From Synechococcus sp. PCC 7336 (GTDB lineage Bacteria; Cyanobacteriota; Cyanobacteriia; Thermostichales; PCC-7336), in NCBI RefSeq assembly GCF_000332275.1, contig NZ_CM001776.1:3351737-3415736 (forward strand): a stretch of 64,000 bases of DNA, given 5' to 3'. The position numbers and the translations under genes are program-made. Of the stretch, positions 2,476 through 58,602 are shown piece after piece. The notes beneath the pieces were generated by a model that was not told where the DNA came from, did no database searches, and saw nothing but the letters and a program-made list of their open reading frames with translations. Each line of letters begins with the position of its first letter. Positions within the stretch are counted from its first letter, which is position 1.

Positions 2476-3432
2476 TTACCGCTTGTTCAGCCCCCTCAAC
2501 CAAGCCGTTACATCACTCAGTTCCTCAAAATCGAGCAGCGCTTCCCCCAAATTGTCTAAGGCATCGAAATCCAACAACCGCACCCGCTCCTCAACTTCGG
2601 CAGACAGCTCGCCCACTCGGCACTTGAGCTGACGAAGTACTAGCCCTACCTCTCGCTCGCGAACCTGCTCGATGCCCTGCTCGATGCCCTGCTCGATGCC
2701 CCTTTCCATCCAACTAGTCGAGATCTGCATAATCCCCTCCCGTTCCTCCAGTTCTAAGCTATCAACTTCGGCTTGAAACAAGCGCTCCTCATCCGGACTC
2801 AATCGCAGATAGCAATCGATAAACCGCGATAAAAACTCCGTTCGACCGGGATCGAGCCGCAACGTCACCAGCATCCGCAAACATTCGTTTTTGACCCGAG
2901 GGCGATCCTCTGGCGCAATTTGCATCTTCGCCATTAAGGCAGACGCCACCGGATTGTACTGCTCCAAATAATCTCGCCAGCGCAGACGATTCAGTTGAAT
3001 CGACCGGTAATTGAACTGCAACACCTGAAAATCTGGGAATTCTACCCGCAGATCGCTCGTCGCCTCCACCAGCGGGCTATCGTAGGAAAAGATAACCACC
3101 GGATAGATCGGCAAGTCATATTTCTCGAACAATCTTGCGAAATAACAAAACATCCGCCGCTCGAAGCGAGCTCTTGCAGAAGACTGAGGCTCGATATGAA
3201 AGAGGAAGTAGCTGTCCTCGCCGCGAAACTTCACCCGAGCCAGCAAATCAATAATTCGCTTCTCCTCCGTCCCAATGCTGCTGTACACCTCCTGGTGCAA
3301 AAACGTCACAGTGCCTCGCTCGATATACTCCAGGGTCTCTGGTAAAAATAGCTCTAGGAACTCCCAGAAGAATGTCTGAATCAGTTCCTTAAACAAGCCA
3401 TCATGGTCAATGGCATCGCCCTCAGACTGCAC
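2476..3432 (-). CDS. Rpn-family PD-(D/E)XK nuclease/transposase-like protein
   Basis: 318 residues resembling the Rpn/DUF4351 group common in cyanobacteria. The N-terminal half carries the nuclease-like core, including LLARVKFRGEDSYFLFHIEPQ near residues 62-82, which fits the D...ExQ arrangement of this superfamily, followed by RMFCYFARLFEKYDLPIYPVVIFSY. The C-terminal part has a charged segment with GIEQ repeated three times, then a DUF4351-like helical end (VRLLDFDALDNLGEALLDFEEL). Rpn proteins are DNA nucleases proposed to promote recombination; the role here is unknown. It converges on ftsH. A decayed relative lies near 13.7-14.2 kb. Confidence 0.8.
   Translation of the reverse strand: MQSEGDAIDHDGLFKELIQTFFWEFLELFLPETLEYIERGTVTFLHQEVYSSIGTEEKRIIDLLARVKFRGEDSYFLFHIEPQSSARARFERRMFCYFARLFEKYDLPIYPVVIFSYDSPLVEATSDLRVEFPDFQVLQFNYRSIQLNRLRWRDYLEQYNPVASALMAKMQIAPEDRPRVKNECLRMLVTLRLDPGRTEFLSRFIDCYLRLSPDEERLFQAEVDSLELEEREGIMQISTSWMERGIEQGIEQGIEQVREREVGLVLRQLKCRVGELSAEVEERVRLLDFDALDNLGEALLDFEELSDVTAWLRGLNKR
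2665..2700. repeat. Three tandem 12-bp repeats inside the Rpn-type gene
   Basis: CTGCTCGATGCC occurs three times without interruption. Read on the minus strand it encodes the GIEQ repeats of the nuclease protein. The unit is a multiple of three, so copy-number change would keep the reading frame and alter only the length of a helical linker. Confidence 0.95.
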
Positions 3433-3519
3433 TTAGCTTTTCCCCATCTCAACTCCACCGATCGCTCCCTACAGACAACACTCTATCTAGCAGCCAAACC
3501 ATCCCTACCATAGAGCCAA

Positions 3520-3858
3520 TCAAAATCGAACAATATCGAAGCGGAAGCCGCGATCGCCAAATTGATTTTCAGTATTGCGCAGACCGGGCAGTAGGGGCTT
3601 GCGGAAATTTCTTTGCAGTTCGATGGTTTGGGTGTTGCGATTTTGGGCTTCGAGGCGGAGGGTAGGACGCTCGGCTGAAACTTGTTGCAGACTCTGGAGT
3701 GAGTTGCGATCGCCTCCAGGTGTATCCAGTTCCCGCACCGCCGACTCGGAGGCTAGGGCTGTTGAACTGGCAGGGATAGCAACTGCTGCAATCCCTAACG
3801 CGATTGCGATATAGAGCCGAGATAAATTCACTTTCATGTTGAATGACCAAACACCCAT
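3520..3858 (-). CDS. Small exported protein of unknown function
   Basis: 112 residues with an N-terminal signal peptide (VNLSRLYIAIALGIAAVAIP, cleavage near LASES) and a short polar mature region rich in Arg, Gln and Asn. No family is recognised. The chosen ATG has AAAGG eight bases upstream; a second ATG seven codons later, at 3837, gives a more usual signal-peptide N-terminus but has a weaker ribosome-binding site. The gene is divergent from the RnfD-like gene and may share its control region, but no function follows from that. Confidence 0.55.
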   Translation of the reverse strand: MGVWSFNMKVNLSRLYIAIALGIAAVAIPASSTALASESAVRELDTPGGDRNSLQSLQQVSAERPTLRLEAQNRNTQTIELQRNFRKPLLPGLRNTENQFGDRGFRFDIVRF

Positions 3859-54712: not shown

Positions 54713-55885
54713 ATGACTGTCCTCGATCGCATCCGAGACCGCATTGCCCAAGTGCAACGCTTGGGTCTGTATCGCCAATTGCACCACCACTCTGCCTGCG
54801 ATGGGGTACGAGTCAAGTGGGGCGATCGCTGGCTGATTAATTTTTCCAGCAATGACTATTTGGGCTTGGCCCGAGAGCCGCAGTTAGTGGAAGCGGCGAT
54901 CGCTGCAGCTCGACAATACGGTACGGGCAGTGGAGCCTCGCGGCTGGTGACTGGGAGTTTCGATTTTCACCAGCAGTTGGAGTGCCAAATTGCGACCTGG
55001 AAAAGGACGGAAGCGGCACTGGCATTCAATTCCGGCTATCAAGCCAATCAAGGGGTGTTAGTGGGACTGACCAAGGGGGGCGATCGGATTTTTGTCGATG
55101 CCCTGGCCCACGCTAGCCTCAGAGACGGTACGGTCTTGAGTCGCGCCCGCAGTCACGAGTTTCGCCACAATGACCTCGAACATTTAGAGCATCTCTTGAA
55201 CAGCCACCCCAGCTCGGGCATTCGGCTGATTGTGACCGAGAGCGTGTTCTCGATGGATGGGGATGTGGCCCCCTTGTCTGAATTATTGCAATTGGCCAAA
55301 ACCTACGACACCGTCCTAGTGGTGGACGAAGCCCATAGTGTGGGGGTATTCGGGCCTGCGGGATCTGGGCTGTGCGCGCATTTGGGCTTGAAGGGCGATC
55401 GCCTGATTCAAGTGGGCACCTGCGGCAAGGCGTTAGCGAGTTTTGGCGCTTATGTCGCCAGTTGCGAGGCGATCGCCGAGCTTTTGCGCAATCGGGCCAG
55501 GAGTTTTATCTACACCACCGCATTACCCCCCAGCGTCATTGCTGCCACCCGTGCCGCGATCGCTTATCTGCAAGCCCATCCCGAACGCCTGCAACGCCTC
55601 CACCGCAATCGCCAACACCTAGCCTCTCGTCTCGGCAGAGTCCTCGACAGCCAGATTTGTCCCATTGTGCTCGGCGAGCCCGAAATAGCTCTGGCGGCCT
55701 CGCAACACCTGCGCGATCGCGGCTTTTGGGTCCAAGCGATCCGCCCCCCCACGGTGCCCAACGGTACTGCCCGCTTGCGCATTTCCCTCTCGGCTAGCCA
55801 CTCTGCCGAGCAACTGGATAGCCTATGCGATGCTTTGCAACCCTGGCTTTCTGCTCAATCGCTACCCCATCAAATGATTCGTTAG
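54713..55885 (+). CDS. bioF: 8-amino-7-oxononanoate synthase
   Basis: 390 residues. PLP enzyme that joins pimeloyl thioester and alanine in the first committed biotin step. NFSSNDYLGLA, GTGSGASRLVTGSFDFHQQLE in part, VVDEAHSVGVFGPAGSG and the pyridoxal lysine K239 in GTCGKALASFGAYV are all characteristic. Other members of the fold, such as KBL or 5-aminolevulinate synthase, are less likely by length and motif. It begins about 25 bp after a TnpB-type hairpin, so its promoter may have been changed by an insertion. A phosphopantetheinyl transferase gene follows about 78 bp later. Confidence 0.9.
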   Translation: MTVLDRIRDRIAQVQRLGLYRQLHHHSACDGVRVKWGDRWLINFSSNDYLGLAREPQLVEAAIAAARQYGTGSGASRLVTGSFDFHQQLECQIATWKRTEAALAFNSGYQANQGVLVGLTKGGDRIFVDALAHASLRDGTVLSRARSHEFRHNDLEHLEHLLNSHPSSGIRLIVTESVFSMDGDVAPLSELLQLAKTYDTVLVVDEAHSVGVFGPAGSGLCAHLGLKGDRLIQVGTCGKALASFGAYVASCEAIAELLRNRARSFIYTTALPPSVIAATRAAIAYLQAHPERLQRLHRNRQHLASRLGRVLDSQICPIVLGEPEIALAASQHLRDRGFWVQAIRPPTVPNGTARLRISLSASHSAEQLDSLCDALQPWLSAQSLPHQMIR

Positions 55886-55963
55886 TTGTAGAATGCTTTC
55901 GATTAGCTAAGCTGCAAGCGGCGATCGCCCATCTCTGAAAATGAATCGCCGGAGAATTAAACT

Positions 55964-56737
55964 ATACTTTGGCTTCAACCCCCTTCTCCCCTCCTCCAAC
56001 CCGTTCGCCACGAAGTACATGTATGGCGAGGGAATCTGCCCTGCTATGCCGGAAATGTTGCTAGCCTTCATTTATTTCTCAATTTTCTCAATAGCGGGGA
56101 ACGGCAGCGGGCCGATCGATTCCGATTCGAGCGAGATCGCGATCGATACATTATTTGTCGCGGTCTTCTACGCTTGCTTCTCGGTCGCTACCTCAGCCAA
56201 TCTCCAGCCTCTTTAGAGTTTGAATACGGACCGTACGGAAAACCAGCCCTTGCCAAGCATCACTCGAGTGTATTGTCATTTAATCTTTCCCATTCAAAAG
56301 ATATGCTCCTACTGGCCTTTAGCTGCGATCGCGACATTGGCATTGATGTCGAGCATACCCGTACTATCTGTGACGAGCAGGTTATCGCCAAGCAATTTTT
56401 TGCCCCTAGAGAAAAAGCTGTTCTGCAGGGACTGCTTCCTCAGCAGCGACAGCGCGCCTTTTTTCATTGCTGGACTCGCAAAGAAGCCTATATCAAAGCA
56501 TTAGGGGGGGGGTTGAGTATTGCTCTCGATAGCTTTGAAGTGACCCTATTGCCCAACGAGCCTGCTCAATTGTTAAAGGTTGCAGGTCATACTGTAAAAG
56601 CGAGCGACTGGAGCATGGCAGACCTCGATATTCATCCAGATTATGTTGCAGCACTCGCCGTGAAGAGTCCTCAACCGCAGATCTATTCCTGGACTGCTCC
56701 GATAGAAACTGAGATCGTTAATCATTCAAATGACTGA
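55964..56737 (+). CDS. Sfp-type 4'-phosphopantetheinyl transferase with apparent ATA start
   Basis: Transfers phosphopantetheine from CoA to carrier proteins. The core is clear: RFRFERDRDRYIICRGLL, FEYGPYGKPAL, LSFNLSHS, IGIDVEHTR and the WTRKEAYIKALGGGL loop. The conserved frame is open from 55961 and reads LWLQPPSPLLQPVRHEVHVW, a normal family N-terminus, but holds no ATG, GTG or TTG until a TTG at 56174 that would remove about 70 conserved residues. An ATA at 55964 lies eight bases after GGAGA. Either the original ATG became ATA, or a non-standard start is used, or the sequence has an error. From 55964 the product has 257 residues, the usual size. Confidence 0.8.
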   Translation: MLWLQPPSPLLQPVRHEVHVWRGNLPCYAGNVASLHLFLNFLNSGERQRADRFRFERDRDRYIICRGLLRLLLGRYLSQSPASLEFEYGPYGKPALAKHHSSVLSFNLSHSKDMLLLAFSCDRDIGIDVEHTRTICDEQVIAKQFFAPREKAVLQGLLPQQRQRAFFHCWTRKEAYIKALGGGLSIALDSFEVTLLPNEPAQLLKVAGHTVKASDWSMADLDIHPDYVAALAVKSPQPQIYSWTAPIETEIVNHSND

Positions 56738-56835: not shown

Positions 56836-58602
56836 CCCTCATCCCCCGACCCCTCTCCCAACTTTGATCCTGCTGGCGAATTCAACAAAGCGTAATACTA
56901 CTGCAGATACTGGCCAGTGTTAGCTGCCGTGAGTCAAAGGGAAGGAGGCCCAAGGATGGTAAGTCTGCTCGAATAGCGGGCTGTCAGAATAGACATACTC
57001 TGCGGAACTAGGCGGCAGGAATAAACTGGAAGGCCGACGGTACAAAGGTACAGGCAATCTTTGTCTCCAAAGTAGAAATCCCTTATCCACTCGGCATTTC
57101 AGACTATTTCTCTGTTTAAAACCGATTGAGGTGCAGGGGCGTATTGATTGGAAATATGCCTTGAGTCTGGAGTTAGACGATCCCGGCATTGATGCTTCAG
57201 TGCTGAGCGAATTTCGCCAACGATTAGTGCGTGGCGGTGTGGAACAACAACTGCTCGATAAGTTGCTGGCTCGCGCTCAGGAACGTGGCTGGATTGAAGC
57301 AGGAGGAGCCCAACGAACTGACTCAACCCACGTTGAGGCTGCCCTTCGGAGGCTGCATCGGCTAGAGCTGATTGGCGAGACGTTACGAGCCGCCCTCAAT
57401 AGTTTGGCGGTGTTAGTCCCAGAGTGGTTGAGTGTGCTGCTCAGCCCAGATTGGTTCGAGCGCTATAGTTGCCGGGTGGAAGATTACCGATTCCCTCAAG
57501 ACAAGCAGGAACGTCATCAGATGATGCTGAGGTTCGGAACAGATGGGCATCGACTTCTCAGTGCCATCTATGCTGACCCAACAGGGCCGGATTGGCTCGG
57601 CCAAGTCCCGGCAGTGGAGGGGTCACCACAGGTGTGGATTCAACAGTTTTATCTCGATGCCGAGCAGCGCTTGCATCTGCGCGAACAAGCTCAAGGGCAA
57701 CCACCTAGCGGAGGGCGGATTGGCTCTCCCTATGAGCTGGAGGCTCGTTTCAGTCGCAAACGCCAGACCGAATGGGTGGGCTACAAAGTCCATCTCACCG
57801 AAATCTGCGAGGCCCATCAGCCCCACTTGATTACCCATGTAGAAACCACCAGGGCAACCACAGCTGATAGCAAGCTCACCCAATCGATTCATCAAGCCCT
57901 ACAGGACAAAGAACTCTGTCCGCAGGAGCATCTCGTCGATACCGCCTACATAGATGCCCCCCTGTCGATCGACACTCAACAGGTGTACAACATTGAGCTG
58001 CTGGGGCCGGTCTTGCCGGACAGTAGCTGGCAAGCTCGCACTCCCCAAGGACTCGATATCACTCACTTTGAAATTGATTGGACCCAGCAGCAAGCTCGCT
58101 GTCCACCCGGCCATCTCAGTTCAACTTGGGAACTTGAGCGCGACCAACGGGGGCAGCAGAGGGTGAAAATTCGCTTTCCCGCTCAAGTCTGTCAGGCTTG
58201 TCCCCTCAAAGCTCAATGCACCCGTTCTCAAAAAAATGGACGCTCTCTCTCTGTGCGGCCCCAAGCCCAACACCTTGCCTTACAACAAGCCCGAGACACA
58301 CAACAATCCGAGGAGTTTAAGCAGCGCTATGCAGCTCGCGCTGGGATTGAAGGCACTCTCTCTCAAGCGGTCTCATTTGGACTGCGACGCTGTCGTTATA
58401 AGGGCATCGCCAAAACCCACTTGCAACACGTCATAACTGCCACCGCTATAAATGTCGTACGCTTAATCAATTGGTTACACGAACAGCCCTTTGCTCAGAC
58501 TCGAACCTCTCACTTTGCACAATTGGCCAATACTCCATAGGAATGTTACGGAATAATTCGCCAGCAGCATCAGAATTGGGGGAAGGGGTTAGGGGATGGG
58601 GG
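56836..58602 (+). mobile_element. IS1182-type element with about 47-bp inverted ends
   Basis: The left end (from 56836) and the inverted right end (to 58602) align over about 47 bp: CCCTCATCCCCCGACCCC versus CCCCCATCCCCTAACCCC, and both run into CTGCTGGCGAATT. Between them is a transposase with the C-terminal two thirds of IS1182 proteins. The outer CCCTCATCCCC part resembles dispersed repeats common in cyanobacteria, so the true IS tip may be the inner CTGCTGGCGAATT at 56870 and 58567. Confidence 0.75.
57131..58540 (+). CDS. IS1182-family transposase, N-terminus missing
   Basis: 469 residues from a GTG. It opens directly at QGRIDWKYALSLELDDPG, which in full-length family members lies near residue 85, so the N-terminal domain (QxFLExLSDRQAAD region) is absent. 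The DDE catalytic part (QRTDSTHVEAALRRL, then VDTAYIDAPLSI, and the C-terminal Y/E region RYAARAGIEGTLSQAVSFGLRR in two motifs) and a CPLKAQCTRS zinc-ribbon-like segment are present. The 250 bp upstream within the element do not encode the missing part in any plus-strand frame. It is probably inactive. Confidence 0.8.
   Translation: MQGRIDWKYALSLELDDPGIDASVLSEFRQRLVRGGVEQQLLDKLLARAQERGWIEAGGAQRTDSTHVEAALRRLHRLELIGETLRAALNSLAVLVPEWLSVLLSPDWFERYSCRVEDYRFPQDKQERHQMMLRFGTDGHRLLSAIYADPTGPDWLGQVPAVEGSPQVWIQQFYLDAEQRLHLREQAQGQPPSGGRIGSPYELEARFSRKRQTEWVGYKVHLTEICEAHQPHLITHVETTRATTADSKLTQSIHQALQDKELCPQEHLVDTAYIDAPLSIDTQQVYNIELLGPVLPDSSWQARTPQGLDITHFEIDWTQQQARCPPGHLSSTWELERDQRGQQRVKIRFPAQVCQACPLKAQCTRSQKNGRSLSVRPQAQHLALQQARDTQQSEEFKQRYAARAGIEGTLSQAVSFGLRRCRYKGIAKTHLQHVITATAINVVRLINWLHEQPFAQTRTSHFAQLANTP

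Follow-up and report, generated by a model that had tools for sequence, protein, structure and literature searches.

The gene for a 4'-phosphopantetheinyl transferase (PPTase) in Synechococcus sp. PCC 7336 raises the question of where its translation begins, as the frame contains no standard start codon ahead of a large part of its conserved sequence. The window considered here is the whole 64,000-nucleotide stretch of DNA that was analyzed, and positions without a contig prefix are counted from its first letter. A preliminary description of the locus had left three explanations side by side: use of a rare start, a recent inactivating mutation, or an error in the sequence. A rare start, the ATA at 55964, is favored below because the frame is intact, encodes the sole Sfp-type PPTase found in the genome and has plausible clients, because of the position of the ATA, and because AUA starts have a precedent in S. 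aureus; the other two explanations keep a smaller share of the probability.

An Sfp-type PPTase and its surroundings

The open frame extends from 55961 to 56737 on the forward strand, ends in its own TGA (56735–56737) and begins with the codons ACT, ATA (55964), CTT, TGG, CTT, CAA, CCC and CCT (Table 1). Two Pfam families match the predicted protein above their cut-offs, PF01648 with 69.6 bits (cut-off 25) and PF22624, the N-terminal PPTase lobe, with 44.6 bits (cut-off 27). The NCBIfam HetI model (NF042922, an equivalog) also matches (2e-61, 207.3 bits) but stays below its cut-off of 370 bits, so that the protein is, by sequence, a relative of HetI that is not filed as HetI itself. B. subtilis Sfp (PDB) matches by sequence over query residues 37–201 (1.2e-20). 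The AlphaFold model of the 257 residues reaches a pLDDT of 93.2 and a pTM of 0.90, with residues 1–10 averaging 89, and a strand (residues 17–24) and a helix (56–77) span the part before TTG 56174. In an alignment of the protein with 34 relatives, drawn from 99 of suitable length, 26 columns are invariant, among them E46, L69 and R70, and all of these residues are present in the PPTase; G126, D128, E130, W170, K173, E174 and A175 are identical in all 35 sequences and make up the motifs GxDxE and W..KEA. With two lobes and about 230 residues as the criterion for the Sfp-type (group II) fold, and Sfp compared with the PPTase by sequence only, the protein is by its domains and motifs an Sfp-type PPTase, predicted to activate carrier proteins by transferring phosphopantetheine to them.

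Table 1. Features of the PPTase locus, in window coordinates.
Feature	Position	Strand	Basis or remark
bioF-like gene	54713-55885	+	TIGR00858, 454 bits, over cut-off; ends 78 nt before the ATA
91-codon ORF opened by an ATG, out of frame with the PPTase and overlapping its start	55941-56216	+	codon model makes no distinction from the PPTase frame here
GGAGA, Shine-Dalgarno-like	55951-55955	+	eight bases (55956-55963), then the ATA
In-frame TAA closing the PPTase frame upstream	55958-55960	+	sequence
ATA, probable non-canonical start codon	55964-55966	+	sole near-cognate codon before residue 25; homology onset
Sfp/HetI-type PPTase	55964-56737	+	257 codons plus stop; Pfam, NCBIfam, PDB, AlphaFold
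TTG, first canonical in-frame start, 70 codons after the ATA	56174-56176	+	rejected as functional start

A tblastn search with the protein of the upstream bioF-like gene against the loci of the PPTase relatives (flanks of about 1.5–3 kb) gave no match at 1e-5, and scans for promoters and terminators found sites no more numerous than in shuffled sequences. Downstream, 112 bases past the PPTase stop, an IS-like element begins (56850–58587), bounded by 33-nt inverted repeats (56850–56882 and 58555–58587, 85% complementary) and carrying a transposase ORF (57131–58540; PF13751, PF05598). As the match covers the PF05598 profile only from position 34 of 74 onward, the transposase may be truncated at its N-terminus or have a disrupted frame.

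The start region and the starts of relatives

The elements on which the preliminary description was built are confirmed in the sequence: from the stop at 55958 to TTG 56174 the frame holds no ATG, GTG or TTG, and the GGAGA is separated from ATA 55964 by exactly eight bases. When the in-frame codons of 55961–56176 were scanned for ATG, GTG, TTG, ATA, ATT, ATC, CTG, ACG, AAG and AGG, only ATA 55964, CTG 56036, ATT 56150, ATT 56153 and TTG 56174 were found, the ATA being the sole near-cognate codon ahead of the conserved HVW motif. Among the best 80 of 541 loci from named genomes, which share 41–49% identity with the PPTase, homology sets in at residue 1–3 in 49 and by residue 9 in 68, which places the beginning of the conserved coding region at the ATA or a few codons off and bears out the claim that some 70 conserved codons precede the first usable start. 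One relative (L036) carries an identical LWLQPP downstream of its own ATG leader.

Nearly all examined relatives have a standard start where this gene has none. Of 115 matched loci 106 were examined, leaving out nine in which the match begins after residue 20, and 104 of them contain a standard start ahead of HVW, under a lenient definition that accepts any ATG, GTG or TTG from the upstream stop to six codons before HVW; the two exceptions, L039 and L051, are metagenome bins. The start chosen by script in the 104 relatives is ATG in 73, TTG in 17 and GTG in 14. Measured against the ATA position, the nearest start lies three to five codons further upstream in 43 of 95 relatives and within one codon in 13, a choice that itself biases toward short distances, while L044 and L106 are among the relatives with an ATG immediately before the conserved W. 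To say that the ATA occupies exactly the place at which one expects an ATG is thus slightly generous with regard to the relatives; with the TAA only two codons upstream of the ATA, the leader of this PPTase is shorter than that of most of them. The closest relative among the loci returned shares at most 49% identity, too little for a base-level alignment of the start regions; in the other eight genomes of the order (nine searched) the PPTase finds matches at 34–39% only.

Two of the bins deserve a description of their own. In the Acidobacteriaceae bin L051 (match 3001–3705) the upstream stop is followed by no ATG, GTG or TTG before the GTG within the HIW motif, and an in-frame ATA lies five codons before the conserved W, at about the ATG position of many relatives, without a convincing Shine-Dalgarno sequence. 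In the Anaerolineales bin L071 an AGGAG lies just upstream of the in-frame stop of the PPTase frame, and the first standard start is a TTG nine codons inside the homologous region, by which alone this locus passes the lenient test.

The Shine-Dalgarno match is suggestive only and may lend the ATA modest support as a start: across 464 kb of this genome, GGAG, GAGG or AGGA at a spacing of 5–10 precedes 476 of 8619 ATA triplets (5.5%) as compared with nine of 42 genes that have only one possible start, and for GGAGA at a spacing of 6–10 the corresponding counts in sampled DNA of the same genome are 47 of 8619 and two of 42. A predicted fold of the leader pairs four of the five GGAGA bases and is no stronger than folds of shuffled sequences (z -1.07), so that a leader hairpin acting as regulator was rejected. 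Over 55964–56173 a fourth-order codon-phase model scores the PPTase frame at -3.7 and that of ATG 55941 at -1.5. Codon statistics therefore count, weakly, against the PPTase frame in its first 70 codons, weakly because homology decides the frame; the overlapping ORF is probably a chance frame.

To look for further genes lacking a start codon, codon models were also applied to 464 kb of the genome; the first, with its threshold set at 5, flagged two of 318 genes. Among the 304 genes called by the second, 62 have at least 20 open codons upstream; three of these scored 5.2–6.0 and the PPTase ranked eighth with 0.5. These models are too weak to yield a base rate of genes lacking a start. The genome's own infC (L119, G000:C1:2395738-2396238) lacks an ATG ahead of its conserved part and was considered as a case of a rare AUA or AUU start. 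This was rejected, as a TTG, a standard though unusual start, lies at codon -20 before INERI. The same TTG is common to seven of eight order mates, from which it seems that an unusual infC start is kept in the order, and the eighth, L180, has a TTG at -18; three of the 20 infC loci (L173, L178 and L183) did not show the motif searched for.

Clients in the genome and the competing explanations

The genome assembly, the only one of its family among the genomes searched, consists of one contig of 5,066,637 bases, in which the PPTase protein finds a single match. A second member of PF01648 matches AcpS above that model's cut-off (G000:C1:967034-967405), and by these searches the PPTase of the window is the only one of the Sfp type found in the genome. 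AcpS passes the cut-off in 17 of 59 genomes, this one included, in all seven other genomes with the best PPTase matches as compared with nine of the remaining 51 (a post hoc count), and in none of the eight order mates, one of which gives a weak match that overlaps its own Sfp-type gene. Carrier-protein domains number 15 in the genome. Fourteen of them lie in stop-free frames of 701–3330 codons, which indicates that clients of the PPTase exist, and one in a frame of 96 codons; 12 are clustered within about 55 kb (G000:C1:4845234-4900138) in frames of 1182–3330 codons, probably a large PKS/NRPS cluster, judging from frame length and carrier domains alone. A report on cyanobacterial PPTases states that AcpS-type enzymes serve fatty-acid carriers only, that the AcpS of E. 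coli has limited activity on PKS/NRPS carriers, and that attempts to knock out the PPTase of Synechocystis failed (PMC5605751). In the present genome, AcpS could thus suffice for fatty acid synthesis, the PPTase of the window being needed for the PKS/NRPS-like enzymes. With AcpS present, the loss of this PPTase need not be lethal, and a damaging mutation could be survived.

Since AUA initiation is known in bacteria, the simplest reading is that the PPTase is complete and made from the AUA at low yield, and we infer that it is probably translated in this way, with a fair margin of doubt. The GGAGA eight bases upstream would position the ribosome on AUA 55964, where the initiator tRNA would read the codon as formylmethionine with a mismatch at the third position, giving a fraction of the efficiency of AUG. 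So low a yield could be afforded, since the enzyme would act catalytically and each carrier protein needs to be modified only once. A more far-reaching version, in which the AUA is fixed in a deep-branching cyanobacterial family and throttles a secondary-metabolism PPTase, making the activation of the PKS/NRPS-like carrier domains dependent on IF3 or on the nutrient state, appears improbable; if true, it would give AUA a regulatory role as the start of a cyanobacterial gene other than infC.

The intact PPTase frame together with the long intact frames of its clients points either to a functional gene or to damage of very recent date. In the scenario of a recent start-codon mutation, the PPTase has been silenced or its synthesis strongly reduced, for instance after long culture; AcpS serves the fatty-acid carrier protein, and the PKS/NRPS-like pathway has been lost or weakened. 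The presence of AcpS as a second PPTase, which no order mate has over the cut-off, is in keeping with it, as are the start codon being the sole visible defect of the gene and the description of the S. aureus citZ AUA for one laboratory lineage. On the other hand, no further damage is visible in the frame, its motifs or the very long frames of the clients, and S. aureus reporters with AUA or AUU retain about 10–30% of AUG expression, meaning that a near-cognate start is not necessarily a knock-out. On balance this scenario is unlikely, though it deserves to be kept in mind. An assembly or sequencing error could conceal a standard start at the ATA codon itself, or a length error could have separated the frame from ATG 55941, which lies in another frame 20 nt before the open frame and would give a leader similar in length to that of many relatives; the standard starts of 104 of the 106 examined relatives would be accounted for as well. 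Such an error would, however, have had to strike the start codon in a one-contig genome whose carrier-domain frames run for up to 3330 codons free of stops, and a random hit on any of the roughly 15,000 bases that make up start codons should be rare a priori, for which reason we rate it low, as a rather small chance.

Two further routes would leave the sequence as it is and dispense with the AUA. Translation from TTG 56174, which had been named as an alternative, would use the earliest standard start of this frame and yield a shorter enzyme in which the PF01648 match is complete. It is contradicted by conservation and by the structure model: 70 residues would be lost with three of the 26 invariant positions and the PF22624 match, the predicted 22-residue helix 56–77 would be cut and deprived of its first 15 residues, and the alignment with Sfp itself already sets in at query residue 37. 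On these sequence and model grounds TTG 56174 does not appear to be a credible start, and its use is very improbable. Ribosomes might also start at ATG 55941, whose overlapping ORF spans the region, and shift past the TAA into the PPTase frame. Such a programmed frameshift was rejected and is hardly conceivable, as no Shine-Dalgarno sequence precedes this ATG and inspection by eye found no recognizable slippery heptamer at the required site.

If the AUA is indeed used, gene finders that accept only ATG, GTG and TTG would start the PPTase wrongly at 56174 and drop its N-terminal part, and the gene would be one more on the short list of bacterial genes started by AUA. For natural product research, the question bears on whether the large PKS/NRPS-like cluster of this genome can be activated. 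If a mutation or an error proves responsible instead, a caution for annotation is all that follows.

Comparison with known non-standard starts

A small number of genes with AUA starts have been described from other bacteria, and a narrow literature search found no description of one in a cyanobacterium or for a PPTase. With the cyanobacterial Sfp-type PPTases (PMC5605751), the PPTase of the window shares its family, a length about twice that of AcpS and the expected carrier-protein clients; compared by description, without alignment, it differs from them in its start codon. The AUU of E. coli infC, the subject of work cited in PMC9845219, is a near-cognate AUN start, as the ATA would be, and limits the expression of its gene. 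IF3, the protein encoded there, regulates its own synthesis, whereas nothing suggests autoregulation for the PPTase.

The closest parallels come from S. aureus, for which one study reports AUA starts in infC, ccpN and citZ (PMC13009471). In poor medium, reporters for the AUA of ccpN and citZ and the AUU of cvfC1 are described there as reaching about 10% of AUG; in rich medium the ccpN AUA reporter attained up to 30%. The S. aureus cases rest on ribosome profiling, supplemented by reporters for ccpN and citZ, whereas the start of the PPTase is predicted from its sequence; extended Shine-Dalgarno motifs are reported for infC and ccpN (PMC13009471), that of the PPTase being short. All three genes have the AUA start that is probable for the PPTase, and citZ also provides an example of one bound to a lineage, since its AUA is reported to be conserved among strains of the laboratory lineage NCTC 8325 (PMC13009471). 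With such a case at hand, a rare start and a recent mutation become overlapping categories, and a substitution like that at 55964 may be tolerated, adaptive or damaging.
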